Shown here one piece after another: positions 24,309 to 43,679 of a DNA stretch of 43,931 nt. Under the pieces are notes generated by a model. It worked only from the letters and a program-made list of their open reading frames with translations. It searched no databases and was not told where the DNA came from. A program made the translations under genes and the position numbers. Source of the DNA: a virus; IMG/VR virus record IMGVR_UViG_3300044623_000852, positions 1 to 43,931 of that record, one strand, 5' to 3'. The first letter of the stretch is position 1; every line of letters begins with the position of its first letter.

Positions 24309-24701
24309 CTAGTCTTGGACGCGACGAACCGTTTGCCGTCGCTCACGAATCGCAACACCGGGATCAGTGGTCGTTCGCCGGGAAGGGGAAGGTGGCGGGC
24401 AGAACGCCCACCCATTGACCAGCGCGGACTCAGCCTGCTCGACGCTTGTCACGCAGAAGCACTGGCATCCGCCTTTCGTGCTGATCTCTGACATTCGCCG
24501 CTGCTGCAACAGGGTGGGTTCCGACTTCTTCCCTAACCCCGGCTGTTTCACTTCAAGGAACACAGCCCGCCCATCCTTGAGCATGAGAAGGTCAGGCAGG
24601 CCAGCCTTCTGCATCGGTCCCCCGTGCAGCTTCGTCGGTAGCCATCCGTGGCGTTCGGCCATCCGAACAATACCGGCGACGATCGTGCGTTCCAGCGGCA
24701 T
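24309..24701 (-). CDS. VRR-NUC domain nuclease
   Basis: 130 residues. The VRR-NUC restriction-endonuclease-like fold is seen in WLPTKLHGGPMQKAGLPDLLMLKDGRAVFLEVKQPG, with Asp37, Glu50 and Lys52 as the PD-(D/E)xK triad, and LLQQRRMSEI as the following helix. Standalone phage VRR-NUC proteins are structure-specific nucleases, thought to act on branched or replicating DNA. The start at 24701 has AAGG upstream. Confidence 0.9.
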   Translation of the reverse strand: MPLERTIVAGIVRMAERHGWLPTKLHGGPMQKAGLPDLLMLKDGRAVFLEVKQPGLGKKSEPTLLQQRRMSEISTKGGCQCFCVTSVEQAESALVNGWAFCPPPSPSRRTTTDPGVAIRERRQTVRRVQD

Positions 24702-24773
24702 CCTTGCGCTCCCCGTAGAAGTTGCGATGCCCGAACAATTGAGCGTATCGCATTCAGGTCGTCAAGGGCAGCG

Positions 24774-32189: not shown

Positions 32190-32981
32190 TCACTCGTCGG
32201 TTTCGATCTGACGCTCGACAGCCTTCAGCGGGTTGGTGTAGAGACGCTGAATCGCAGCACCGGCCTCCTTGCTGATCTTGCCCGTGAGACGCGGGATGAT
32301 CTGCGAGTAGTCGATGCCACCCTGAGACGTTGCCTTCTCCAGCGTCAGGGAAACCCTGGCACGGAAGTGAGGAACCTCCAGCCGAGTCACGAACGGGGCG
32401 ACGGTCTTCAACGAACCCGGCCCGGCCGAAACGATCACAGGAAACGCCTCACCCTCCTGCAAGATCGCCATAACGCGCGACTCCTTGCACCGCCGCCCGA
32501 AGCCGCCGCGACCGCTGCCGTCCTTGTTCCACGGCAGACGGTTCCAGTCGTAGAGCCGGTTGCCGATGCGGCACTCCTCCAGAGCGACCGGGTCGATGTC
32601 ACCGAGATCGTCACTGACTCGCTCGGCTGTCCGAAGGTCGTAGGTCACCAGCAACGGTGGCTTTCCCTTCTGGATGTCCTCGCTATTCCACAAGACGCCA
32701 CGCTGGCCGTAGTAGGTGAGGATGCCCTCAATGGCCTTCGTCTCCACCTCGTTGTTCCCCGAGTCCAGATAGACCCAGGTTTTCCCGCCACCCGCTGGCG
32801 TCTTGACCTTCACCAGTGCGTTGAGGTCAAACCCACGCCCCTGCGTGTTGGCCTCAATCGCCTCCGCGATGTCACTGTCTGGCATCAGTGCCGGAAACAG
32901 CGAGACATCCACCTCCTCCAGACGAGACAACGACGTCCCGCCGCTTGCTGCAACTGCCGTGCTTGCTGAACTCTTAGCCAT
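32190..32981 (-). CDS. Conserved phage replication-associated protein (SSB-like)
   Basis: 263 residues from the ATG at 32981, with GGAGG 9 nt upstream. It follows the plan of a phage/plasmid family found beside Prim-Pol and helicase genes: GGKTWVYLDSGNNEVETKAIEGILTYYGQRGVLWNS, RCKESRVMAILQEGEAFPVIVSAGPGSLKTVAPFVTRL, ARVSLTLEKATSQGGIDYSQIIPRLTG. The single barrel-like core and location suggest single-stranded DNA binding or replisome scaffolding; this is inferred from synteny, as the family has no agreed function. Confidence 0.65.
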   Translation of the reverse strand: MAKSSASTAVAASGGTSLSRLEEVDVSLFPALMPDSDIAEAIEANTQGRGFDLNALVKVKTPAGGGKTWVYLDSGNNEVETKAIEGILTYYGQRGVLWNSEDIQKGKPPLLVTYDLRTAERVSDDLGDIDPVALEECRIGNRLYDWNRLPWNKDGSGRGGFGRRCKESRVMAILQEGEAFPVIVSAGPGSLKTVAPFVTRLEVPHFRARVSLTLEKATSQGGIDYSQIIPRLTGKISKEAGAAIQRLYTNPLKAVERQIETDE

Positions 32982-33011: not shown

Positions 33012-33021
33012 CCCAAACAAT
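33012..33021 (-). repeat. Junction element, degenerate copy
   Basis: CCCAAACAAT, related to the TCCGAACAAT element of the early region (33-42 kb). It is 9 nt past the stop of the gene at 33031-33474 and about 30 nt before the SSB-like start. Confidence 0.3.
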
Positions 33022-33030
33022 TAGCCGCCG

Positions 33031-33474
33031 TCAGAGCGCTCTGCTCCGAAGTTGCGACTCCACGAACTCCGTCACCAAGCCGTCAAAAGCGGTCCCAGCG
33101 ACGAAAGACTCACCACGATTGCGGCCACGGTTCTTCGCCCGTTCAGCCAGCCATGCCTTGAGGGTTGCCGTTGCAACGGTCGTGATCTCCTCGGCAATCC
33201 CCTCCTTTTTTGCTGCGTCCAGCACCTTATCACGCTGGTCTGAGTTGACCGAAAGCCTCAGAGACTCCTGCATCCACCACGTTCGCCCGGCAACCTTGCA
33301 TCCGTCGAGGCCACTTGCCCCGAGGGACTCCAGCGCCAGCCGCTCCATGCGTTCAAGCCGTTCGTTCGCTGACTTGAGCGAGGCTTCGGCGGCTGACTTC
33401 TCGTCACGCAGCCTCGCCACCTCAGACAACAGGTCGGACAACTCGCTCGGAATAACCACCTCACCCGTACTCAT
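33031..33474 (-). CDS. Conserved phage protein with coiled coil
   Basis: 147 residues from the ATG at 33474 (TGATG). The N-terminal half is a coiled coil (ELSDLLSEVARLRDEKSAAEASLKSANERLERM), then GCKVAGRTWWMQESLRLSVNSDQRDKVLDAAKKEGI and VATATLKAWLAERAKNRG. The GrtW....slsv...nrd.Vl..a...gi block occurs in phage proteins next to replication genes. The role is unknown. Confidence 0.68.
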   Translation of the reverse strand: MSTGEVVIPSELSDLLSEVARLRDEKSAAEASLKSANERLERMERLALESLGASGLDGCKVAGRTWWMQESLRLSVNSDQRDKVLDAAKKEGIAEEITTVATATLKAWLAERAKNRGRNRGESFVAGTAFDGLVTEFVESQLRSRAL

Positions 33475-33758
33475 CAGTTGTTCTCCGGTTCGACCAAGAC
33501 ACACTGGACTACGGCCTGCCAATCGACCGTTCGGCGTAGGGCAGTCGCCAACGCCGCACTGAAAAACTCGTCCATCTGCGACATTGGCTCACGAAGCTCT
33601 TGGCAGATTTCGTGTTGGAGCCGAGCCGCCACCCGCGTGATGCACCAGCCTTCGCTCACCTGACTCGCAATGCGACGGCAGAGCTTCTTGTTCTGGCGAA
33701 TCATCTTCACCATGACCAGCGTCTCGCGATTCGCCACTACGTCACCGCTCAAGATCAT
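33474..33758 (-). CDS. Small helical protein
   Basis: 94 residues, mostly helical (VKMIRQNKKLCRRIASQVSEGWCITRVAARLQHEICQELREP). Start overlaps the helicase stop (ATGA) and the end overlaps the next gene. No recognised domain. It may be a partner of the SNF2-like helicase. Confidence 0.6.
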   Translation of the reverse strand: MILSGDVVANRETLVMVKMIRQNKKLCRRIASQVSEGWCITRVAARLQHEICQELREPMSQMDEFFSAALATALRRTVDWQAVVQCVLVEPENN

Positions 33759-35137
33759 GCCACTGCCTCCTTCCGGCTTGATAGCCGAGCCATAACGGAT
33801 GAAACGACGTCGCTCTTTGTCGTGAGTGCCCGATACACGGCCTCGTCAATCGTGTCGCGGGCAACAAGGTGGTAGTAGTGGCAGCAAGCGGACTCCTGGC
33901 CCGGCCTGCGGAGCCGCCGCAGTGCCTGCTCATAGATGCCCGGCGACCAATCGACCGAGTAGAAGACGGCGTGAGCAGACCGCGTCAGGTCGATCCCCTC
34001 CGCACCAGCACGAATCTGAACGCCGAGAACGTCGCTGTTCCCTGCCTTCCATGCAGCAAGAGTCTTTTCGCGGCCACTGACCTCGCTGTATCGCCTTCCC
34101 GTCTCCCGGCACAGTGCCTCAATCTCACGGGCATCGGACGAGAAGACGTAGAACACCACCAGCGGCTCTGCTCGGTCGAAGTCATCCAGCCAATCCCGAA
34201 GCGCTGCTCGCTTCGCCGGCATCCCGTCGATCAGCGATGCCGCTTCGGCCTCATCCACGCGGGCATATCCGCTCGTCGCCTGCCGCAGCCGGATCGTTCG
34301 GGCTAGTGCATTTGCACAGGTTACGAAGCCCGAGGACACCTCGGCCACCAACTCACGCTCCAACTCCTTGTAGAAACGCATCGTCTGCGGCGAGAGGTCA
34401 ACGGCGATCCGCTGGTGCGTCTCTTCTGGCAGATCAAGGACATCCTCGGTCGCCACCTTCCACACCCAAGGGTCCGTGATCTCAGCGAACTCCTCCTGCC
34501 GGATGTATCGCTTCACCTGGGACGGGAACATCGGGTTGACCTCGGCAAACCGCGACCGACAGCGGACGTATGACGGCCCGAAGACTTCGGGCTTGACGAA
34601 GCGGAACTGCCCGAACATATCCAGCGGACCATTCGGCATCGGCGTCCCCGTCAGGGCGAGCCGTCGAGCCGATTGATTCTTCGCAGCCAGTGCCGCAAGC
34701 CACTTGCTCGCCCTTCCGGTCGGTGACTTTGCCCGATGAGACTCATCAAGGATGATCCATGACCACGGCATGGAAGCGATGGCCTTGCCCAAATCGCCCT
34801 GCCAGACGGCGTCGTAGTTGGCGATCACCACAAGCGGTGTCGCCCCAGCCACCGTGACCGCCTGCTTGAGCCGTTCCGCCCTCTTCTTGGTGGCTCCCTG
34901 CGTCAGCAGCAGCGGCCTCGCTGGCCTACCCAGCACACCGCTCGCCATCAACGCACAAAGGGTCTTGCCGCCACCCATGCCGATCGCTGCCATCGCCCCC
35001 GGCTTGTCTCCAAGCCACTCAACGAACCGCGTCTGATGCTGCCTCGGCTCGTAGCCCCCGGCCGATGCCCGCTCGACCGCCTCACTCCACCATTCACCAA
35101 CGGCCTGCGGAGTGACCACAAGGATGTTCTTGCTCAT
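33755..35137 (-). CDS. SNF2-type superfamily 2 helicase
   Basis: 460 residues. Motifs: YEPRQHQTRFVEWL (Q-like), AAIGMGGGKTLCAL (Walker A, about 51-60), VVIANYDAVW, WSWIILDESHRAKSP (DESH, about 126-135), LALTGTPMPNG (III), then in the second lobe VVFYVFSSDAREIEAL, VLGVQIRAGAEGIDLTRSAHAVFYSVDWSPGIYEQALRRLRRPGQ (V and VI). This matches the small phage SNF2 helicases of replication modules. DNA remodelling at replication forks is likely. Confidence 0.93.
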   Translation of the reverse strand: MSKNILVVTPQAVGEWWSEAVERASAGGYEPRQHQTRFVEWLGDKPGAMAAIGMGGGKTLCALMASGVLGRPARPLLLTQGATKKRAERLKQAVTVAGATPLVVIANYDAVWQGDLGKAIASMPWSWIILDESHRAKSPTGRASKWLAALAAKNQSARRLALTGTPMPNGPLDMFGQFRFVKPEVFGPSYVRCRSRFAEVNPMFPSQVKRYIRQEEFAEITDPWVWKVATEDVLDLPEETHQRIAVDLSPQTMRFYKELERELVAEVSSGFVTCANALARTIRLRQATSGYARVDEAEAASLIDGMPAKRAALRDWLDDFDRAEPLVVFYVFSSDAREIEALCRETGRRYSEVSGREKTLAAWKAGNSDVLGVQIRAGAEGIDLTRSAHAVFYSVDWSPGIYEQALRRLRRPGQESACCHYYHLVARDTIDEAVYRALTTKSDVVSSVMARLSSRKEAVA

Positions 35138-35457
35138 GGACGATCCTCCGCAAGCTCCAGCAGCTTGCCGTCAACGTCCTCGCGGTTCTCCTCGACGTAG
35201 TTCTCGACCATCTCCTTCGCACGATTCCAGACCGCGAGCGTGAAGTCTGCCGTCCCTGGCTTCTTGGATGACAAGCACAGCAGTCGCCAGTCGAGCAGTT
35301 CCACTTCGTCAGGGGTCGGGGGCCAGCCGTCGCCGTTTGAGTCACGCCGACAGCCGGGATCGCCGGCATGGACGATGAACTCGACCTCGACATGGAGCGT
35401 GGCGAAGCCTCGGCCAAGCTCATCGTTCTCGTCAGGGATCTCGATGGTGAGTTTCAT
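35134..35457 (-). CDS. Conserved phage protein of unknown function
   Basis: 107 residues, ATGA-coupled to the SNF2 gene. It begins with an amphipathic strand pair (KLTIEIPDE, ATLHVEVEFIV), then GDPGCRRDSNGDGWPPTPDEVELLDWRLLCL with conserved-looking Pro-Asp and Trp positions, and an acidic helical C-terminus. Soluble, acidic overall, possibly a nucleic acid mimic or adaptor. No family is recognised. Confidence 0.6.
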   Translation of the reverse strand: MKLTIEIPDENDELGRGFATLHVEVEFIVHAGDPGCRRDSNGDGWPPTPDEVELLDWRLLCLSSKKPGTADFTLAVWNRAKEMVENYVEENREDVDGKLLELAEDRP

Positions 35458-35852
35458 GGCCCCACCTCCTCGGCGTTGGCGGCGACGATCTCAGCCTTGA
35501 TCGCCTCCAACTGCCGGTCGATCGCATCGCGGTATTGCGTCAGCTTCTCGCAGGCTTTCGCCAGAGCCTCGTTGCGGGTGTTGTAGGTGTTGTGATCGAC
35601 CGTCCGCAGGAACACTTGGCCGAGTCCACCACTGTGGCGGCAGACCGCGACGTTCCCCGGAAGTCGACCGAGGCACTCGTACGCTGAAATCCAATACTGG
35701 CAACCAGTCTTATCGTCGCACCTGTCATGAATGAACATGGTGTAGATGTGAGAGCCATCGGGGATCGGCGTTCCGTAGGTCTCAATCATCCCCGCGATAG
35801 CTGCCGCTGCCTCGGCGTCTCCGGTCATCGTCTCTGTTGATGCTTGGTCCAT
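35454..35852 (-). CDS. Unrecognised soluble protein
   Basis: 132 residues from the ATG at 35852 with AAGGA upstream; it ends by overlapping the next gene (ATGA). Central part: GTPIPDGSHIYTMFIHDRCDDKTGCQYWISAYECLGRLPG, a mixed strand region with three cysteines, and a helical end (LAKACEKLTQYRDAIDRQLEAIKAEIVAA). No family. Confidence 0.6.
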   Translation of the reverse strand: MDQASTETMTGDAEAAAAIAGMIETYGTPIPDGSHIYTMFIHDRCDDKTGCQYWISAYECLGRLPGNVAVCRHSGGLGQVFLRTVDHNTYNTRNEALAKACEKLTQYRDAIDRQLEAIKAEIVAANAEEVGP

Positions 35853-35904
35853 AGCGCGTTCCTTGCTGTGAGAGGGGGGAAGAGAATCCGTTCCTGAAAA
35901 GAAG

Positions 35905-35947
35905 TGCCGGGGGGCAGGGGGAAACGGAGAAACCCTGCCCCCCGGCA
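35905..35947 (-). terminator. Perfect 15-bp GC hairpin
   Basis: TGCCGGGGGGCAGGG and CCCTGCCCCCCGGCA form a perfect 15-bp stem with a 13-nt loop, 15 nt after the DUF932 stop. It is the longest hairpin in the window. No U tract follows in the transcript. Confidence 0.55.
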
Positions 35948-35962
35948 ACAGACAGCGGGGGA

Positions 35963-36853
35963 CTAGACCGCCATCTCCAACGCAATCCGCTCGGCACGGC
36001 GAACCGCACCGTCACGGAGCGAACGGATCACACGCCCCATCTCGTCGGGCCGACGCTGACGGGACGCCTCATGCTGCACGAACCCCTGGACGGCATTGAA
36101 TGCCTCCCAGGCAGACACCTGAAAGTCATTGCCCATCGTCGGGCGACCTGTCTTGACTCGCTCGTTCTGGAGCCTGCGGAAAATCGCCTCGGTGCGGTTC
36201 CGATGGATCGTCGCGGCACGACCCTCATCCCGCTTCGGCTCTCCGTAGACGGCGTTCAGGAACTCGACCATCTGAACCTGACGCCCCTCCATCGACTCGA
36301 TGAGTGCCGACAAGCTGCCCCACGACTCCTTGAGCGTGGAGAACTGCCCGATGAGCGTGTCCATCTCGCTGCGGAGTCCGCCGGTATGCCAGATCGAAAC
36401 CGTCGTGCCCTTGGTCTGCCGCATGATGTGCATATTGGAACAGGCATCACGCCAGTACCCCATCGAAGCCCTGAATGCCTGACCGCCGTACCCCGCGTTG
36501 ATGATCACGCGAGGGAAGACGTTGTCGGCGGTGCCGTAGACAGCCTTGCGATGCTCGACCGTGGGCTGGATGGAGACGAAGTGACCGTTGCGGAATCCGC
36601 ACTGGACGTCGGCTACACCGTCGAAGGCAGCGGACGCGGCCTCCACCAGAGCGAGGACATCGTCGGTGGTGTGCGGGACGTACCGCTGGCTCACGCTGCC
36701 TTGACCGACAACGTCATGCGTGTCGGAGCGGAACAGGGCGTACCACGGTGTCCGCATCCCCTCGGGGCCAGCCAGCGGGAAGCGGTCCACGCTGAAATCG
36801 AACGCTGACTTCACCTTGCTCACAACCGAGTTGTCCATCGTCGCGATGCTCAT
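35963..36853 (-). CDS. DUF932 protein
   Basis: 296 residues with the AAACGGAGA ribosome-binding sequence. It matches the phage/plasmid DUF932 family: TPWYALFRSDTHDVVGQGSVSQRYVPHTTDDVLALVEAA, then FVSIQP, VFPRVIINAGYGGQAFRASMGYWRDACSN, and a helical C-terminal part with WEAFNAVQGFVQHEAS. The family is widespread in phages and plasmids near replication genes. Its biochemical role is unknown. Confidence 0.85.
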   Translation of the reverse strand: MSIATMDNSVVSKVKSAFDFSVDRFPLAGPEGMRTPWYALFRSDTHDVVGQGSVSQRYVPHTTDDVLALVEAASAAFDGVADVQCGFRNGHFVSIQPTVEHRKAVYGTADNVFPRVIINAGYGGQAFRASMGYWRDACSNMHIMRQTKGTTVSIWHTGGLRSEMDTLIGQFSTLKESWGSLSALIESMEGRQVQMVEFLNAVYGEPKRDEGRAATIHRNRTEAIFRRLQNERVKTGRPTMGNDFQVSAWEAFNAVQGFVQHEASRQRRPDEMGRVIRSLRDGAVRRAERIALEMAV

Positions 36854-36888
36854 GATCTGTTCTCCGTTTTCTGAGTAGTGTTTCCAAG

Positions 36889-36900
36889 CCTAAACAATCA
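36889..36900 (-). repeat. Junction element (TCCGAACAAT family)
   Basis: CCTAAACAATCA on the plus strand. Minus strand TGATTGTTTAGG, located 36 nt upstream of the DUF932 start. One of six related copies in early gene junctions. Confidence 0.4.
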
Positions 36901-36951
36901 GTCCAGCGTCCCGGCCAACGCGGCCGCAACGCAAGTCATCGAATCCCGAAA

Positions 36952-37239
36952 TCAGCCGATTCTGCTGGCGATCTGCTCCGCTTTCGTCAGGAGCGTGAGC
37001 AGAGATGCCGCGTCACTTGCAAGCGAGCGAAGTTCCTCATGGGCTTCGTCTGGCGTCATCTCATTTCCCTTCACGTCGTCTTCCACGATGCCGCATGACA
37101 TATGAATCCTCATGCTTCGCAGTGCGCAGTCGAGTTGCTTTCTGATGACGCCAATCATCGTCGCGGTTGTTCTGGTCTGGTCGGCCAGGAGTCGGACAGA
37201 AAGCTGGTCGTGCTTCTGCTTTGTCGCGGTCATGGTCAT
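36952..37239 (-). CDS. Small helical early protein
   Basis: 95 residues from the ATG at 37239 (AAACGGAACC). Helical throughout: SVRLLADQTRTTATMIGVIRKQLDCALRSMRIHM and EAHEELRSLASDAASLLTLLTKAEQIASRIG. No recognised domain. It follows a junction element. Confidence 0.6.
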   Translation of the reverse strand: MTMTATKQKHDQLSVRLLADQTRTTATMIGVIRKQLDCALRSMRIHMSCGIVEDDVKGNEMTPDEAHEELRSLASDAASLLTLLTKAEQIASRIG

Positions 37240-37266
37240 GGTTCCGTTTTGAAAAGGGTTGGGGAG

Positions 37267-37277
37267 TCCGAACAATC
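37267..37277 (-). repeat. Junction element (TCCGAACAAT family)
   Basis: TCCGAACAATC on the plus strand, 2 nt past the stop of the gene at 37280-37522 and followed by GGACTCCCCAACCCTTTT in the transcript direction. Confidence 0.5.
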
Positions 37278-37279
37278 GG

Positions 37280-37522
37280 TCAGGAAGGGATCTGCGTCAC
37301 GCGAATCGTCTCGCCCGTCCAGGGGTTGATGCACTCTTCGCGGTGCAGCCCCTCCTGCTCACGGATCACGGCACACAGGTCTTCGATCAACGTCAGGACG
37401 TTGTCTACGTTCTTCGGGTTGTCGCCTACCTTCGTCTGGAGTCGCGTCTTCAGGTCATCGCGGCCAAGCGACCGGATCGCGTCCTGAATCTTCTTGAAGT
37501 CCATCTTGGAAGCAGGGGTCAT
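37280..37522 (-). CDS. Small early protein of unknown function
   Basis: 80 residues, CCAACGGAGA upstream. Mostly helical: MDFKKIQDAIRSLGRDDLKTRLQTKV and VDNVLTLIEDLCAVIREQEGLHREE, ending CINPWTGETIRVTQIPS. Small, charged, soluble. No family. Confidence 0.6.
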   Translation of the reverse strand: MTPASKMDFKKIQDAIRSLGRDDLKTRLQTKVGDNPKNVDNVLTLIEDLCAVIREQEGLHREECINPWTGETIRVTQIPS

Positions 37523-37554
37523 CGCAAGTCTCCGTTGGAAAGGGTGTTAGGGAG

Positions 37555-37565
37555 TCCGAACAATC
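37555..37565 (-). repeat. Junction element (TCCGAACAAT family)
   Basis: TCCGAACAATC overlapping the stop codon of the gene at 37564-37806 (TGATTGTTCGGA in the transcript). Confidence 0.5.
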
Positions 37566-37806
37566 AGCCGCGAAACGGAACCGTCGCCTTGCCGCTACGG
37601 TTGATAGTGCAGCGGGTCTTGCTACCCCACTTGCGGAACCCGTCATTCACGAAATCGCAGAGGCTCTGCTCGATAGCGGCCGCACGATCAGCGGCCTCAC
37701 GGCAGGCCGTCTCGACTTCGTGCCGGTTAAACTCCTCGGCCGTCATTCCGGTGGCCTTGCGGGCAGCGATTCGGGCAGCAATGCGAGCCTTCGTTGCGTC
37801 GTCCAT
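37564..37806 (-). CDS. Small basic early protein
   Basis: 80 residues from the ATG at 37806, with AAACGGAGACAAG upstream. Start MDDATKARIAARIAARKATGM, then HEVETACREAADRAAAIEQSLCDFVNDGFRKWGSKTRCTINRSGKATV. Helical with a short basic tail. It is the first gene behind promoter 37861-37888. No family. Confidence 0.62.
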   Translation of the reverse strand: MDDATKARIAARIAARKATGMTAEEFNRHEVETACREAADRAAAIEQSLCDFVNDGFRKWGSKTRCTINRSGKATVPFRG

Positions 37807-37860
37807 TTTCTTGTCTCCGTTTTTAAGAACCCCCCGAGGCGTCCGCCCCGGTATGACCCT

Positions 37861-37888
37861 AATATACACTATCGGCAAACGGTGTCAA
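37861..37888 (-). promoter_or_regulatory. Sigma70-type promoter P1
   Basis: On the minus strand, TTGACA (37888-37883), 16 nt, TATATT (37866-37861). The flanks CTATAG upstream and GCCGATAG within the spacer are shared with the promoter at 42973-43000. The leader to the gene start at 37806 is about 50 nt. Confidence 0.75.
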
Positions 37889-37951
37889 TAGCCTATAGAA
37901 ATAATTTTTCCCTCCCGTTTTGCTCTCGTTTTTCAGGGTTTTGCCGTTTTT

Positions 37952-38044
37952 GCCCCCCGGCCCCCCCCCGGCCCCCGGCCGGTTTTGGGCCCCCGGCCGG
38001 TCCCCCCGGCCCCACAGCGGGCCAGCCGGGGGCCGGGCAGGCGG
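37952..38044. other. G-run-rich non-coding block
   Basis: A 90-nt stretch almost entirely G and C between the 46-residue gene and promoter P1. On the minus strand it holds at least five runs of three or more G. It is likely to fold into strong stems or a G-quadruplex, and may act as a transcription barrier ahead of P1. No gene is seen in it. Confidence 0.5.
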
Positions 38045-38185
38045 TCACGGGCCAGCCCCCCCGGCCCCACGGACCACCGCGTCAATGAACGCGGTGACCG
38101 CTCGGGCCATCGGCGTGTCGCTTCCCAACTCCTGGCCAATACGGACGAGCGTCAAGGCCATCACGATTGAGTCGATGGACTTCAT
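38045..38185 (-). CDS. 46-residue protein coupled to the Pyr_excise gene
   Basis: A very short gene: ATG at 38185 overlaps the previous stop (ATGA). Sequence begins MKSIDSIVMALTLVRIGQELG and continues MARAVTAFIDAVV before a Gly-rich end. Helical and mildly hydrophobic. The last codons run into the GC-rich block. No function is assigned. Confidence 0.55.
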   Translation of the reverse strand: MKSIDSIVMALTLVRIGQELGSDTPMARAVTAFIDAVVRGAGGAGP

Positions 38186-38667
38186 GCCATCACCTCCTTC
38201 TCAACAGGCCAGACGTAAGACAAGTCCGATGGCTCATGCCACCCGAACTGACAGTAGTGGCCGTAGTCCTTGCGAAGCAAGTTGCTGCGATGGCTTGCGT
38301 GAAACGATTCGTAACCAAGCCAGTTCGGAAGTCGCCAGCCAAGAATGTCAGCGCGTGAAACAACGGCAGCATCGAAGATCGCTTGGCGAACCGCGACGAA
38401 CTGATCGAAGAGAGTGTCTCGGTAGCCTCGGCTTCGCCATTCACAGCACATCACCATGCCGTACCCCGCAAGGGCAACCTCATGCCCTCGCCACATCCTG
38501 GCCGCTGGATGGTGCGACCACGCGGACTTCGTTGGCTGATGATCGCCAACCGGAACGCCGAGTGCGAGGAGCAGTTGTTTGGTTTCGACTCGCTGCTTGC
38601 CGAGCCGCTTTCGGTCAAGACATCGTGCCGAATGCGTGAACGATGCGTAAGGAAGAAACGTCTGCAT
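38182..38667 (-). CDS. Pyrimidine dimer DNA glycosylase-like protein (Pyr_excise family)
   Basis: 161 residues. MQTFLPYASFTHSARCLDRKRLGKQRVETKQLLLALG is the conserved N-terminus of this family (related to T4 endonuclease V), followed by AWSHHPAARMWRGHEVALAGYGMVM and C-terminal SFHASHRSNLLRKDYGHYCQFGW. The Thr, Arg and Glu of the catalytic helix region fit glycosylase/AP lyase chemistry, but activity in this bacterial branch is not proven. It would excise UV-damaged or modified bases. Confidence 0.8.
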   Translation of the reverse strand: MQTFLPYASFTHSARCLDRKRLGKQRVETKQLLLALGVPVGDHQPTKSAWSHHPAARMWRGHEVALAGYGMVMCCEWRSRGYRDTLFDQFVAVRQAIFDAAVVSRADILGWRLPNWLGYESFHASHRSNLLRKDYGHYCQFGWHEPSDLSYVWPVEKEVMA

Positions 38668-38993
38668 CAGAATCCCTCCCCCAAGCTCTTTGACTGAAAC
38701 CTAGCCTTGCGCACGATCACCGAACGTCTGACGATCTTTTCGTGCGACCCTGTGTCCCCGAGGAACTTGTTCAGAGACAGGTCAAGTTCATAGGCAAGCA
38801 AGTCGCCGTTATCATCCAAGGTGCCCTCGTTGCACTGCACCTTGATCACGGCCACGGACGGACGCCCTAGCTTGTCGAAGGTGTTGACCCTGGCCGTGGC
38901 CTCGATGCCGTGTTGTTTGCCTGTCGCTTGCAGCATGATCGACCGCGTATCGGGCGACGTCGCAAGCCAAGCCCCAATGCTTTTCATCGGCAT
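38667..38993 (-). CDS. Unrecognised early protein
   Basis: 108 residues. Beta-rich: RSIMLQATGKQHGIEATARVNTFDKLGRPSVAVIKVQCNEGTLDDNGDLLAYELDLSL, ending with a basic tail (RRSVIVRKARFQSKSLGEGF). The stop overlaps the next start. No family. Confidence 0.55.
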   Translation of the reverse strand: MPMKSIGAWLATSPDTRSIMLQATGKQHGIEATARVNTFDKLGRPSVAVIKVQCNEGTLDDNGDLLAYELDLSLNKFLGDTGSHEKIVRRSVIVRKARFQSKSLGEGF

Positions 38994-38996
38994 GGT

Positions 38997-39242
38997 TCAC
39001 CCCACCTTCGCGTTGACGTTGAGCCACCCGACGAACGCAACCTTCGGCCGGGGGACTTCCACGGCCCTGACCTCTTCGCTGTCCTGAAGCCCCAGCTTCT
39101 TGAGCTTTCGCTGAGCCTTGGCGAACGTCGTGAACCACTCCTGAACAACACCAGACGGCGTGTCTTCTTCGTGGTACGTGATCCCGTAGATCACATGGCA
39201 TCGCACCGCTCTGGCCTTCTTGACCTTTGCTTTTGGTTCCAT
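38997..39242 (-). CDS. Small basic early protein
   Basis: 81 residues from the ATG at 39242 (TGATG). Lys-rich start (EPKAKVKKARAVRCHVIYGITYHEED) and WFTTFAKAQRKLKKLG. Soluble, mixed secondary structure. No family. Confidence 0.55.
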   Translation of the reverse strand: MEPKAKVKKARAVRCHVIYGITYHEEDTPSGVVQEWFTTFAKAQRKLKKLGLQDSEEVRAVEVPRPKVAFVGWLNVNAKVG

Positions 39243-39889
39243 CACTTCACTGCCTTTCGTTGAATGTGTTTCCTTGCCGCCGCAATCAAGTCTTTTCGCC
39301 GCCTCTTCGCCGCGTCTTTTCGCGGCACTTCCACCTTGAACTCAAACCTTGCGACCGCCCTCCCCTTGCGAACGGCGACCCGCCCGCTGTCGAGGATTGC
39401 GACCATTTGCTCTGGTGTGTGGCACAACTCCCCCGGAGGCGGCTGCAACACCCACGCACCGCTCCCCGACCTTTCAACCGTGAGGTATTCACGCACCTCA
39501 TCCACTCGCATCGCATCGTTGGGCTGCATTGAGTGGCGGTCGAGCCGGACGGCGGTCAGCACCATGCCGAGGATCGATCCGCTGAAGTAGGCCACCACGT
39601 TCATTGGCCTGACGTACTCAGCGCTGTCGAGCAGGAACTCGCCAAGCGGATCCTCGCCGTTTTTAGCCACCCAGCGGGAGTAGTCGAGCCAGCTTGCTTT
39701 CGCTTCATCGGCTGTTGGAACGTCCTCCTGATTACACAACTCATGGTCGCCGTCCGAGTAGTTGTCGACGGTGTAGCCTGTCTCGCTTTTGGTGTCGCAC
39801 CAGTAGGTGGTCTTGTGCCAGCCACCCGGCGAACCGCAATCGTTGTCGCCGCATTGCCACGCGGTTTGGACCCATATATCGCAGCACAT
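39242..39889 (-). CDS. Unrecognised early protein with Cys-rich N-terminus
   Basis: 215 residues from the ATG at 39889 (TGATG). The first 70 residues carry CCDIWVQTAWQCGDNDCGSPGGWHKTTYWCD and HELCNQED, a possible zinc-binding region. The middle is helical and the C-terminus strongly basic (KVEVPRKDAAKRRRKDLIAAARKHIQRKAVK). Nucleic-acid binding is likely. The final AVK codons and stop match the end of the next gene upstream at DNA level. Confidence 0.58.
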   Translation of the reverse strand: MCCDIWVQTAWQCGDNDCGSPGGWHKTTYWCDTKSETGYTVDNYSDGDHELCNQEDVPTADEAKASWLDYSRWVAKNGEDPLGEFLLDSAEYVRPMNVVAYFSGSILGMVLTAVRLDRHSMQPNDAMRVDEVREYLTVERSGSGAWVLQPPPGELCHTPEQMVAILDSGRVAVRKGRAVARFEFKVEVPRKDAAKRRRKDLIAAARKHIQRKAVK

Positions 39890-40128
39890 CACTTCACCGC
39901 CTTTCGCTGCCGCCCGACCTTCCGAACCTTGCCCATGAACTCCTTGCCGTTGATCCACCACTCGCCGTCGCCGTCACGGTCAACGGCTGCGAGGTCGAGC
40001 GAATCCCATTCCTGCTTGGTGTAGGCGGGACCGCCCTCGTCGTGCTGGTCGTACATCACCTTGATCCGCTCGCCGTTCGGCATCGCCAGAACGTGAGTCG
40101 CTTGCCACATGCGGCTGTCCTCGTTCAT
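39889..40128 (-). CDS. Small early protein
   Basis: 79 residues from the ATG at 40128 (ATGA). MNEDSRMWQATHVLAMPNGERIKVMYDQHDEGG then DLAAVDRDGDGEWWINGKEF and a basic end (KVRKVGRQRKAVK). The final 19 nt resemble the end of the gene at 39242-39889, pointing to a duplicated junction. No family. Confidence 0.55.
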   Translation of the reverse strand: MNEDSRMWQATHVLAMPNGERIKVMYDQHDEGGPAYTKQEWDSLDLAAVDRDGDGEWWINGKEFMGKVRKVGRQRKAVK

Positions 40129-40421
40129 CGGACTCCTCCACACTTGACGCCATTGATGGCCTGAGCCACCCGGTTCCCGGCCAGTACGAACTCAAGGTTG
40201 AACAGCACGATCGCGTAGTTGCGAGCAGCGGACTTCAGCCCTTCCAACAGATCACCGAACGTCTCATCGAAGACTGCTTGCACCTCCGCACGAAGACGGG
40301 GGGCAAGTTCTTCAGCCTGCTCCGCTATTTCATTGTCGGTCCACCCAAGCTCACGCAGCCGTGAGATGCAGGAGTTGGTTGCCTTGTCGCAGGCATGACT
40401 TGTGAGTTGATCCAGGGTCAT
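40125..40421 (-). CDS. Small helical early protein
   Basis: 98 residues with AAACGGAGA upstream. Helical: MTLDQLTSHACDKATNSCISRLRELGWTDNEIAEQAEELAPRLRAEVQAVFDETFGDLLEGLKSAARNYAIVLFNLEFVLAG. No recognised domain. Confidence 0.6.
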   Translation of the reverse strand: MTLDQLTSHACDKATNSCISRLRELGWTDNEIAEQAEELAPRLRAEVQAVFDETFGDLLEGLKSAARNYAIVLFNLEFVLAGNRVAQAINGVKCGGVR

Positions 40422-40445
40422 TGGTTGTCTCCGTTTGAGTCGTGT

Positions 40446-40622
40446 TCAAGAGTGCCAGTGCTGAATCTTGCCGCCGAGTTTCTTTGCCGCACGAACCGCC
40501 AAGTCGCGGCGGCGGTGCTTGCGTCCAACAACATCCATCCGTCCGTTCTCTGTGGTCCGAAGGATCCAGTAACGGCCAGACGAGTCACGCTCCCCGATGA
40601 TCGTGATGACCTTGACTTGCAT
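40446..40622 (-). CDS. 58-residue basic protein
   Basis: ATG at 40622 (TGATG). MQVKVITIIGERDSSGRYWIL is a strand-loop-strand start, then TTENGRMDVVGRKHRRRDLAVRAAKKLGGKIQHW. Highly basic tail, likely nucleic-acid binding. No family. Confidence 0.58.
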   Translation of the reverse strand: MQVKVITIIGERDSSGRYWILRTTENGRMDVVGRKHRRRDLAVRAAKKLGGKIQHWHS

Positions 40623-41368
40623 CACTCGCCCTCCTTGGCGAAGGCATTGGAGCGGTCGAACGATGACTCCCACGCAGCGTCGGCAGCGGCTCGGTACTGC
40701 TCCGCAAGTGTCGAAAGCTGGCGATTAATCTCCATCCACGCATGGCTCTCGGTCGCGAACAGCCGAGTGGGGTTGATGTTCATGCTGCCCCAAGTGCTTT
40801 CGATGGATTGGCAGACGTAGCCGCGAGCTTCCTTCCGCCCGACCAGAACCTTTCGGGGAGCGGCATCAAGTGGCGTTGCGCCGACGTTGCGTGACGGCAC
40901 GTAGTAGGCAGTTGTGCCCTCAAGCTCCGTCAGCGGCTCATTAACGGTCACGGCGGGGAAGGCGGCAGCGAACGACTTGCAATACTGTCGCCACACCTCG
41001 GCACTCGCGGACTTGGACGATGCGGTGTCAACGTGCCGCACCTCAACCCCCGCCCCGATGTGCGCGTCACGGAACTTGTTGAAGAGTGGATCAACAACAA
41101 TCGTCGTTTTCGGAGACGGGTGGGCAGAGCAGATGGCATCGCACACCTCACGGCCTTGCTTGGTCCACGGGAGGTGAATGAACCTTGTGTATAAGTGCCC
41201 CCGGCACTCTTGGTACTGCCCACTTGCTGCTTTGATTTTCTTTCCCCACTTCGCCACGAAGCCCTCCGGGTTGCGAAGGTGAATCGTGATCTTGTGGATC
41301 GGCGTGATCGTGCGGCCGAGGATGTGGTCGAGTGTCGGATTCTCGGAAACGTAGTCGATGTCGTGCAT
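40622..41368 (-). CDS. Unrecognised early protein
   Basis: 248 residues from the ATG at 41368, following a junction element. Sequence: MHDIDYVSENPTLDHILGRTITPIHKITIHLRNPEGFVAKWGKKIKAASGQ, with many Lys; then VWRQYCKSFAAAFPAVTV, NVGATPLDAAPRKVLVGRKEARGYVCQS and a helical acidic end. Soluble. The length and mixed alpha/beta pattern suggest an enzyme or DNA-binding protein, but no motif is recognised. Confidence 0.6.
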   Translation of the reverse strand: MHDIDYVSENPTLDHILGRTITPIHKITIHLRNPEGFVAKWGKKIKAASGQYQECRGHLYTRFIHLPWTKQGREVCDAICSAHPSPKTTIVVDPLFNKFRDAHIGAGVEVRHVDTASSKSASAEVWRQYCKSFAAAFPAVTVNEPLTELEGTTAYYVPSRNVGATPLDAAPRKVLVGRKEARGYVCQSIESTWGSMNINPTRLFATESHAWMEINRQLSTLAEQYRAAADAAWESSFDRSNAFAKEGE

Positions 41369-41408
41369 GGCTTTTTCTTTTGTGTTGTGAGTTAGTGGAG
41401 GACAGGTA

Positions 41409-41419
41409 TCCGAACAATT
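41409..41419 (-). repeat. Junction element (TCCGAACAAT family)
   Basis: TCCGAACAATT overlapping the stop codon of the gene at 41418-41681 (TAATTGTTCGGA in the transcript). Confidence 0.5.
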
Positions 41420-41681
41420 ACCAGATGCGAATCGACTGTGATTCCCGCTTGGGCTCAGGGTTGTTGGGGGTGCTGATCTCTTCAAGGATGGAGGTCAGCG
41501 TGTCGAAGATGTCATTCAGTCGCGGCAGCACATCCGTCTCGGCGTTCACCATGTTGGAACGCGAGCCGTCGCCGTAGGGCGAGGCCATCTTCCGCAGGAT
41601 CGCTGCCCTCATGTGCTTGAGGTCGGTGCAGGCACTTGCGATGCCTTCAATCATCCGGTTGCGTTGCTCGTTGAGTCTCAT
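41418..41681 (-). CDS. Small helical early protein
   Basis: 87 residues from the ATG at 41681 with AAACGGAGAACGACG upstream. Helical: MRLNEQRNRMIEGIASACTDLKHMRAAILRKMASPYGDGSRS, then VLPRLNDIFDTLTSILEEI. Similar in plan to the gene at 37280-37522. No recognised domain. Confidence 0.6.
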   Translation of the reverse strand: MRLNEQRNRMIEGIASACTDLKHMRAAILRKMASPYGDGSRSNMVNAETDVLPRLNDIFDTLTSILEEISTPNNPEPKRESQSIRIW

Positions 41682-41727
41682 CGTCGTTCTCCGTTTGAGA
41701 TGGTGGAAGGTGTAGAAGTCCCGTCGA

Positions 41728-42237
41728 TCACTGATCAATCCAAATGCACCAAGCAGCGGCGACGTCATGCCGAACGCCGTTGATGATCGTCGCTCGGTCG
41801 CGTCCGCAGATCTTCGTCCCCGGCTTGCGAGGCTGGAGGTAGCCGCACTCGATCAGAACCCTGTTGCAGTCGCGGACCAGTGCCCGCTCCTTGTTCCACT
41901 CCGCGACGTCGAGAACGTGGCTGAACACTTCCGCCCCATCGAATCCCTGCTCCTGGCACTCCGGGTCGTTGTCCCAGACGTCGTTGATGTAGGCGATCTC
42001 GGCCTTGAGTGCATCGCTGCCGTGCGTTTCGATGGCAAGCAGGAGCCGAGAGCGGTTCGGGAGGTAGTCGCTTGCTCGCATGGTCGGCTCCGCTTCGACC
42101 AACTCCAACTCGTAGTCCTGAAACGGCTCGCCGTCCGAGACGAACTCGGCAACGGCCTTCGCTTCGGCAATCGACGGGAATCGCTCCTCGGCAAGATCGG
42201 GGTCCAGTTCGTCGCACTTGATTCGGTAGCTGGTCAT
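41728..42237 (-). CDS. Unrecognised early protein
   Basis: 169 residues. A short beta start (MTSYRIKCDELDPDLAEERFPSIAEAKAVAEF), a central helical region (RSRLLLAIETHGSDALKAEIAYINDVWDND), and a Cys/His/Trp-rich end (VLIECGYLQPRKPGTKICGRDRATIINGVRHDVAAAWCIWIDQ). It lies behind a hairpin and junction element. No family. Confidence 0.6.
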   Translation of the reverse strand: MTSYRIKCDELDPDLAEERFPSIAEAKAVAEFVSDGEPFQDYELELVEAEPTMRASDYLPNRSRLLLAIETHGSDALKAEIAYINDVWDNDPECQEQGFDGAEVFSHVLDVAEWNKERALVRDCNRVLIECGYLQPRKPGTKICGRDRATIINGVRHDVAAAWCIWIDQ

Positions 42238-42268
42238 GGTTCGTTTCCTTGTGGTTCGTGGAGTCCCG

Positions 42269-42295
42269 ACCCGGCCTCCACAGCGGAGGCCGGGT
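42269..42295 (-). terminator. Perfect 11-bp GC hairpin
   Basis: ACCCGGCCTCC and GGAGGCCGGGT form a perfect 11-bp stem with a 5-nt loop, between the zinc-ribbon gene and the next gene. It immediately follows the junction element at 42297-42307 in the transcript. No U tract. Confidence 0.5.
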
Positions 42296-42296
42296 A

Positions 42297-42307
42297 TCCG
42301 AACAATT
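42297..42307 (-). repeat. Junction element (TCCGAACAAT family)
   Basis: TCCGAACAATT, 2 nt past the stop of the zinc-ribbon gene, with a hairpin directly behind it. Confidence 0.5.
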
Positions 42308-42309
42308 GG

Positions 42310-42921
42310 TCAGGCGGGGAACTTTTCAAGCAAGTTCTTGATCGACCCGTAGACTTCCCGCTGGGCCCGTTGTTCGGCGTCTTGGTTGGCATTGGCCAGC
42401 AGAGACGTCGAGCGACCTCCGCCAACGTGCATGAGGAGCGAGTCGAGAAAGTGATCGCTGATGCCGACCAAACCTTCGCGTCCGTTTTTCTTGAACCGCT
42501 CATCGGCATGAGTCCAGAACACATACTTGTGCTGCGCGAGCAGCATTGATTCGGACCACTCAATCGCGTCGGCAGGATTGAGCGTTGCCCGCTCAATGAA
42601 CTTGCTCTTGGCTTCTTCGTATGACTTGGTTGCGTAGCTGACCTTGTCGGCAACCCTGTCGGCCAGCGTGACGGCGGGAGCGGCAACCGCCGGCTCCCCG
42701 AAGACGCCACCCTTGGCGATCGCGGCGGCTCGCAGCCGTTCAATCTCGGCCAACGCCTCGGGGCTCTCGCCGTTGTCCGACACCTCGTTTTCCCAAGAGC
42801 CGCGTTCGTAGCACTCGGGGCAAAGCTCAGCGGAACCGTTGTCCCCGGTGTCCCGCGTCTTGCGGCCGCAATCGCCGCACTTGAAACAGCCGCCGCGATT
42901 GAACTTGCTTGCGTTCTTCAT
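42310..42921 (-). CDS. Early zinc-ribbon protein
   Basis: 203 residues, AAACGGAGAGACG upstream. N-terminal zinc ribbon FKCGDCGRKTRDTGDNGSAELCPECYERG, then a helical region with LAEIERLRAAAIAKGG and DKVSYATKSYEEAKSKFIERATLNPADAIEW. The CGxCGrkTRDTgd..lCpeCYe signature is common in small phage proteins. It is the first gene behind promoter P2, so a regulatory or host-takeover role is likely. Confidence 0.68.
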   Translation of the reverse strand: MKNASKFNRGGCFKCGDCGRKTRDTGDNGSAELCPECYERGSWENEVSDNGESPEALAEIERLRAAAIAKGGVFGEPAVAAPAVTLADRVADKVSYATKSYEEAKSKFIERATLNPADAIEWSESMLLAQHKYVFWTHADERFKKNGREGLVGISDHFLDSLLMHVGGGRSTSLLANANQDAEQRAQREVYGSIKNLLEKFPA

Positions 42922-42972
42922 TTTCGTCTCTCCGTTTTGAACCTTGCCGGGGGGTCCGCCTCGGCTGCTTCT

Positions 42973-43000
42973 ATCATACCCTATCGGCGTTTTGTGTCAA
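42973..43000 (-). promoter_or_regulatory. Sigma70-type promoter P2
   Basis: TTGACA (43000-42995), 16 nt, TATGAT (42978-42973) on the minus strand. It shares the CTATAG, TATTGACAC and GCCGATAG flanks and the exact spacer length with P1, so the two are a duplicated promoter block. Leader of about 45 nt to the zinc-ribbon gene. Confidence 0.8.
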
Positions 43001-43069
43001 TAGGCTATAGAAAAATATTTTCCCTCTCGGTTTTACCCTGAAAAACGCGATTTGCCGCCGCCTACGTCG

Positions 43070-43085
43070 CCCCCCAACGGGGGGG
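43070..43085 (-). terminator. GC hairpin upstream of P2
   Basis: CCCCCC (43070-43075) pairs with G residues at 43079-43085 over a 3-nt loop, just after the stop of the gene at 43090-43347. A short but stable stem, without a U tract. Confidence 0.4.
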
Positions 43086-43089
43086 TAGT

Positions 43090-43347
43090 TCAGGGGCAAC
43101 CGGGGGCCGGGGACGGAGACGCCCCCCCCGTGAGCCGCACTGGAGCGGCGGTCTCAATCCAGACGCGAGCGCCGCATGACAGCGGCTTGTCTGGAGAGTA
43201 GACGATGACGCACGGACCAAGGACTTCAACGCGAGTCGCGTAGACGTTCGTGCGTCCGTTCTTCACCGTCAACACAGGGTGACGATCGCCGGTCTTGAGA
43301 TTCCGACGAATCACGTGCTGATTGACATGGATGATGGTCTTGCCCAT
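43090..43347 (-). CDS. Conserved phage protein of unknown function (IHVNQH family)
   Basis: 85 residues from the ATG at 43347 (88 from 43356). MGKTIIHVNQHVIRRNLKTG, then PVLTVKNGRTNVYATRVEVLGPCVIVYSPDKPLSCGARVWIETAAPVRL. The IHVNQHVIr.n.k.g..nPvltVk......a..V.i.Gps.vvyspd.PL.CGArvWi.T pattern is that of a small beta-rich protein seen in many phages and near early operons. Function unknown. Confidence 0.7.
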   Translation of the reverse strand: MGKTIIHVNQHVIRRNLKTGDRHPVLTVKNGRTNVYATRVEVLGPCVIVYSPDKPLSCGARVWIETAAPVRLTGGASPSPAPGCP

Positions 43348-43651: not shown

Positions 43652-43679
43652 ATCATACGGTCGTGACTTTTTTTGTCTA
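43652..43679 (-). promoter_or_regulatory. Sigma70-type promoter P3
   Basis: TAGACA (43679-43674), 16 nt, TATGAT (43657-43652) on the minus strand. Same spacer length and -10 as P2, with CTATAG overlapping the -35 instead of lying upstream. It drives the HTH gene; transcription would begin about 7 nt after the -10, near the ribosome-binding site. Confidence 0.65.

Follow-up and report, generated by a model that had tools for sequence, protein, structure and literature searches.

What is the short repeat that recurs at the junctions of early genes in the phage genome IMGVR_UViG_3300044623_000852, and does it act in DNA, in RNA or only as a boundary for gene exchange? We analyzed the whole 43,931-base stretch of this IMG/VR record, hereafter the window. 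The initial annotation had placed exact copies of TCCGAACAAT at positions 37267, 37555, 41409, and 42297 and degenerate copies at 33012 (CCCAAACAAT) and 36889 (CCTAAACAAT, the core with two mismatches), all of which we recover. Because the early genes occupy the minus strand, the element is read as 5'-ATTGTTCGGA-3' after the upstream stop codon, and its short form in the reading direction of the genes is GATTGTTCGG. The window contains the 10-mer TCCGAACAAT five times, every time on the plus strand, whereas its dinucleotide shuffles (n = 100) average 0.08 copies, an excess that bears out the impression of greater-than-chance regularity. The fifth exact copy, at 24662, had been overlooked and, like a one-mismatch copy at 24730, belongs to a gene for a VRR-NUC-like endonuclease. 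In the early 12 kb the pattern ATTGTTYRG is found six times, whereas first-order Markov sequences average 0.11, and all eight of its copies in the window lie on the coding strand. Positions 1 to 24,000 hold no copy. The repeat is thus real.

The exact early copies lie close to stop codons. The core element at 42297..42306 (minus strand, as are all copies, cassettes, promoters, and hairpins of the window given below) begins 3 nt past the stop of gene 42310–42921 and opens a spacer cassette (42238..42309) that consists of the element, a GC-rich 12-bp hairpin immediately behind it (42269..42295, with no U-run), and the leader of gene 41728–42237. The copy at 41409..41418 overlaps the TAA of gene 41418–41681, and the start of gene 40622–41368 follows 50 nt on. 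The copy at 37555..37564 overlaps the TGA of gene 37564–37806 within a short cassette, TGATTGTTCGGACTCCCTAACACCCTTTCCAACGGAGACTTGCGATG, and that at 37267..37276 lies 3 nt past the TGA of gene 37280–37522, in a short cassette before gene 36952–37233. Two variants complete the set, one (ATTGTTTAGG, 36889..36898) 45 nt upstream of the DUF932 gene 35963–36853 and the other (ATTGTTTGGG, 33012..33021) at the junction of the DUF7307 gene (33031–33474) with gene 32190–32981. At these two sites the gene calls end elsewhere than at the neighboring TGA or TAA, so that the original description of most copies as touching or closely following a stop holds for the four exact early copies and fails for the two degenerate ones. 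The frame of gene 36952–37233 is open past its TGA as far as the TGA of the next element (36952–36854, minus strand), and the element may therefore mark where this gene stopped in an ancestral phage. In most relatives that retain the DUF932 junction, GCTGGACTGATTGTTTAGG is kept at the place corresponding to 36889, and it is at the 33012 junction that the element is most constant across relatives.

To count the element in related phages, as the initial annotation had proposed, we collected approximately 30 related IMG/VR contigs using the SNF2 helicase, the DUF932 protein, and DNA patterns; these contigs are fragments, their genes were called with our own script and checked by synteny only, and statistics over them ignore phylogeny. 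The count supports a widespread element, with 150 copies of ATTGTTYRG in 29 stretches, of which ≈118 are intergenic. Nearly all run with transcription and almost all fall in the early half, and the reversed pattern, used as a control, occurs zero times or once per record. The 105 nonredundant copies give the consensus TGATTGTTYRGRYWYCC and, less strictly conserved behind it, NAAC; this result is independent at the flanking positions only, since ATTGTTYRG was itself the search pattern. The core persists among phages whose DUF932 proteins are 59 to 64% identical to that of the window and is absent from low-G+C contigs bearing DUF932. A comparison with 50,697 phage records returned no nucleotide match to a named relative, protein comparisons gave only distant ones, and a 20-mer consensus searched against 84,980 bacterial and archaeal genomes gave three single matches, about as many as expected by chance. 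The operon starts next to genes for a tyrosine integrase and an HTH_17/excisionase-like protein, which suggests that these phages are probably temperate; from the integrase sequence, the host may be a planctomycete.

The element is distributed selectively over junction types. In the early block it occupies 105 of 192 gaps of 31 to 100 nt and none of 167 tighter junctions (0/139 overlapping and 0/28 near-abutting), and several other gaps of 31 to 100 nt carry decayed copies, for example TGATTATTCGGATACCC. The next start codon lies 31 to 94 nt downstream in 115 of the 118 intergenic copies. On the other side, the upstream stop is built into the element (as TGATTG) in 75 of 118 copies, and overall its distance takes values of 2, 6, 12 to 14, or 41 to 60 nt, in differing frames. 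A stop-codon context or readthrough signal is ruled out by this variation in distance and frame, which excludes any signal locked to the terminating ribosome. The element is constant at the F5–F3 junction, the most stable of the backbone, and is accordingly more than a recombination scar. When neighbors change, its presence tracks the upstream and downstream gene families alike.

The VRR-NUC gene illustrates the relation to the downstream gene. Here the upstream copy (24730..24739) lies 38 nt 5' of the start codon, and in relatives the element is found ≈40 to 65 nt before the start whether that stretch is noncoding or the end of the upstream gene, a constancy of position that ties the element to the downstream gene. 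This copy is thus position-conserved as a leader. The exact copy within the gene (24662..24671, codons I-V-R) is probably in part a coding coincidence, since relatives show synonymous changes there. F28 likewise retains the element inside its coding sequence. In L018 (18921 and 19016) and L037 (19390 and 19485), two IVRV motifs 95 bp apart mark the end of one gene and the start of the VRR-NUC gene, and their uncommon codon combination, ATT GTT CGG GTA, indicates that the element may be retained even where the sequence is translated.

The spacers that carry the element fall into a few types, namely a short type, one with the hairpin CCCGTGCTGCGG-GCGTT-CCGCAGCACGGG, one with the hairpin ACCCCGCCGCAC-WG-TGCGGCGGGGT, and one in which a hairpin precedes the element, and each ends in a tail around AAACGGAGACACGACGATG. 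Hairpin and element occur in either order, the hairpin coming first upstream of DUF932. Long leaders form a stem of at least six pairs in 36 of 38 cases, compared with 46% of shuffled leaders. Similar spacers recur between unrelated genes: among nonindependent pairs of similar spacers, 113 of 197 with the element share neither flanking gene, compared with 3 of 38 without it. A 97-kb contig that is otherwise different has precisely its stop-to-ATG spacer in common with several phages, at 90 to 93% identity, and its upstream gene is common to a second group and its downstream gene to a third. Near-identical spacers between unrelated genes show that these spacers are portable. The idea that the element is a boundary for gene swapping survives to this extent and no further, since junctions with the element are not rearranged more than others. 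In the comparison with gene gain and loss, conservation of neighbors at element junctions is no lower than at other junctions with spacers (permutation p of 0.11 and 0.95; variable region). We thus reject a swap hotspot, there being no enrichment of rearrangement at elements, and exchange driven by the element is not borne out by this comparison of gene orders. The Shine–Dalgarno tail of early leaders in the window and relatives (GGAGAACA/GGAGACAC) resembles the target of the T4 endoribonuclease RegB, GGAGRAYARAA (PMC3014915).

Other junctions of the same operon carry σ70-like promoters. In the window these lie on the minus strand at 42973–43000 (TTGACA-16-TATGAT), 37861–37888 (TTGACA-16-TATATT), and 43652–43679; an imperfect dyad, CTATTGAC...CGATAG, recurs over the −35 box and spacer of the first two and of most promoters in relatives and is a candidate operator for a phage repressor. 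Of 49 promoter windows (−40 to +5), a single one contains an element-like site, a scarcity that speaks against the element being an operator itself. Behind nearly every promoter is a hairpin with a conserved CGGACA loop and a changing stem, represented in the window at 42946..42965 (loop CGGACC) and, for the second promoter, at 37834..37851 (loop CGGACG). These hairpins were picked by loop and not by pairing, and the 13 distinct ones contain 14 compensated cells compared with 4.7 in shuffles, with a covariation score of 0.46 compared with 0.13 when shuffled and ≤0.12 in slid controls. Such strong covariation indicates that the leaders of this phage group make use of RNA structure. Long G/C runs (GGCCGGGGGCCC and similar) are found in promoter-bearing spacers (37950–38060 and 43060–43130 in the window), and a run of 10 C ends the contig (43922–43931).

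Hairpins and elements can share a leader. In L091, and by eye in L027 and L095, the element lies in the leader just behind a σ70-like promoter, and in L028 a CGGACC hairpin comes after the element. Hairpins of another class, whose RCGUU pentaloop is not among the leading loops of coding sequence, occur on at least eight different stems in spacers, before or after the element; their stem statistics are inflated because they were selected as hairpins. Within the core, a mini-hairpin, GUUYGG/CCNAAC, is more common than in shuffled tails, and its covariation is not convincing. The CGGAYWCC part of the element resembles CGGACACC of the promoter-proximal hairpin, a likeness that may be due to chance. 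An Rfam scan of the early region yielded one chance-level miRNA match away from the elements, and the CGGACA-loop leader hairpin matches no Rfam family. Intrinsic terminators were considered and rejected, as no U-run follows the stems behind the element; the early region has no more terminator-like sites than chance would give.

We tentatively favor a reading, to which we assign nearly even chances, in which the element acts at the RNA level, as a leader element or a processing element, and so provides each uncoupled early cistron with a leader of its own. Between cistrons in the early operon of these uncultured phages would lie an RNA leader of standard build that has the repeat as its 5' boundary, with the element (GAUUGUUYGGRYWYCC) at or near the upstream stop, followed by an optional strong hairpin and a common Shine–Dalgarno leader (≈CAAACGGAGACACGACGAUG). 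Most junctions that lack translational coupling to the next gene would have such a leader. The element would work in the transcript, where it would either be processed or bind a trans-acting factor that begins a separate leader for the following cistron, and it would give internal cistrons what the promoter-linked hairpin leaders may give the first ones. What the data establish is the repeat, with its orientation, location, and conservation, together with portable spacers and covarying hairpins; action in RNA, through cleavage or protein binding, and any effect on expression are inferred. Several considerations run against the RNA reading: the mini-hairpin of the core does not convincingly covary, a direction-dependent protein site in DNA would give the same orientation, the order of hairpin and element is variable, and the element tracks the upstream gene as well.

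Among readings in DNA, an unlikely one though with some merit is that the copies are stoperator-like sites, at which a phage repressor binds and stops elongation, thereby silencing the early operon of the prophage. The stoperators of L5 and other Cluster A mycobacteriophages are asymmetric, transcription-oriented, and found in short intergenic spaces (PMC9283540), and the many copies described here share all of these features, in an operon that begins beside an integrase and an excisionase-like gene. However, the sequence is another one, the copies are limited to the early region, L5-type sites also occupy promoters, which the element does in the single case of 49 noted above, and the promoters bear a different recurrent sequence, the CTATTGAC...CGATAG dyad; moreover, among the genes examined none was recognized as coding for a cognate, L5-like repressor. 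It is less probable again that each early gene has its own start at a noncanonical promoter served by a modified or alternative polymerase. The orientation of the element and its place 31 to 94 nt before start codons, sometimes within upstream coding sequence, would fit, but a profile of aligned copies has no second conserved box at promoter spacing, near-consensus σ70 promoters already serve other junctions of the operon, the element of L091 is downstream of such a promoter, and none of the window proteins examined, which cover part of the genes, matches an RNA polymerase or sigma factor.

We rate no higher than this the proposal that the boundary is kept mainly for homologous recombination, with single early genes exchanged as cassettes. 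Unrelated genes are flanked by similar spacers, the 97-kb contig shares just the spacer from stop to ATG, and genes move with the element at both ends; yet the rearrangement comparison gives element junctions no excess, swapping needs no element at the conserved F5–F3 junction or inside the F28 coding sequence, where it is nonetheless kept, and short conserved functional leaders would passively yield the same pattern. Very improbable is an ordinary duplicated ribosome-binding leader in which the GATTGTTCGG part has no function of its own. The Shine–Dalgarno tail is indeed shared as well, but no part of the spacer is more conserved than the core, which variable sequence and hairpins separate from the Shine–Dalgarno sequence and which persists across the divergence in DUF932 proteins given above.

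The element is akin to several phage junction repeats, among them start-associated sequences (SASs), stoperators, and T4 cassettes, and is a member of none of these groups. SASs, which the initial annotation had brought to mind, are short asymmetric repeats of unknown function, mostly in one orientation and upstream of different gene families, some with an extra inverted repeat, and their consensus GGGATAGGAGCCC overlaps the Shine–Dalgarno sequence just before the start codon (PMC3203893). The likeness stands insofar as the element is an oriented asymmetric repeat before many nonhomologous genes, and breaks down in sequence, in overlap with the Shine–Dalgarno sequence, and in distance: GATTGTTCGG (consensus TGATTGTTYRGRYWYCC) stops well before the Shine–Dalgarno sequence, 31 to 94 nt from the start and not a few, in most cases starts at the stop of the preceding gene, and is restricted to early genes.

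T4-type mobile regulatory cassettes, which combine an early promoter with a stem-loop, are reportedly portable intergenic units between different genes. The element spacers resemble them as portable units with a stem-loop among different neighbors (the 113 of 197 pairs), but lack conserved promoter hexamers, the promoters being at other junctions, and instead have a conserved stop-adjacent core and a shared Shine–Dalgarno tail. The nut sites of λ are promoter-proximal leader hairpins with a conserved loop, a varying stem, and a conserved single-stranded motif. Only the promoter-proximal hairpins of the present phages share with them a conserved-loop RNA hairpin in early leaders, whereas the element has many copies at junctions and a variable order of motif and hairpin; no candidate gene for an antiterminator was found.

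A broader version of the RNA-level reading, speculative and somewhat doubtful, would unite the element, the CGGACA-loop promoter hairpin, and the RCGUU junction hairpins in one RNA-based system, recognized by a factor from phage or host, through which each uncoupled early cistron is licensed or processed and to which genes are added as plug-in units. Small genes are constantly gained and lost in phage early regions, and newcomers need to be expressed in a foreign operon; a standard portable leader before unrelated genes would explain how this is achieved and could give a handle on a regulator of this uncultured phage group. The motif in any case helps to recognize these phages and to delimit their small early genes, and adds one more well-sampled case to the functionally unexplained junction repeats of phages. 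Finally, the L060 UvrD-like helicase is 852 residues long rather than 560, with an insertion in the helicase core starting CQPAGTPVLTASGYKPIEDL that looks like an intein.
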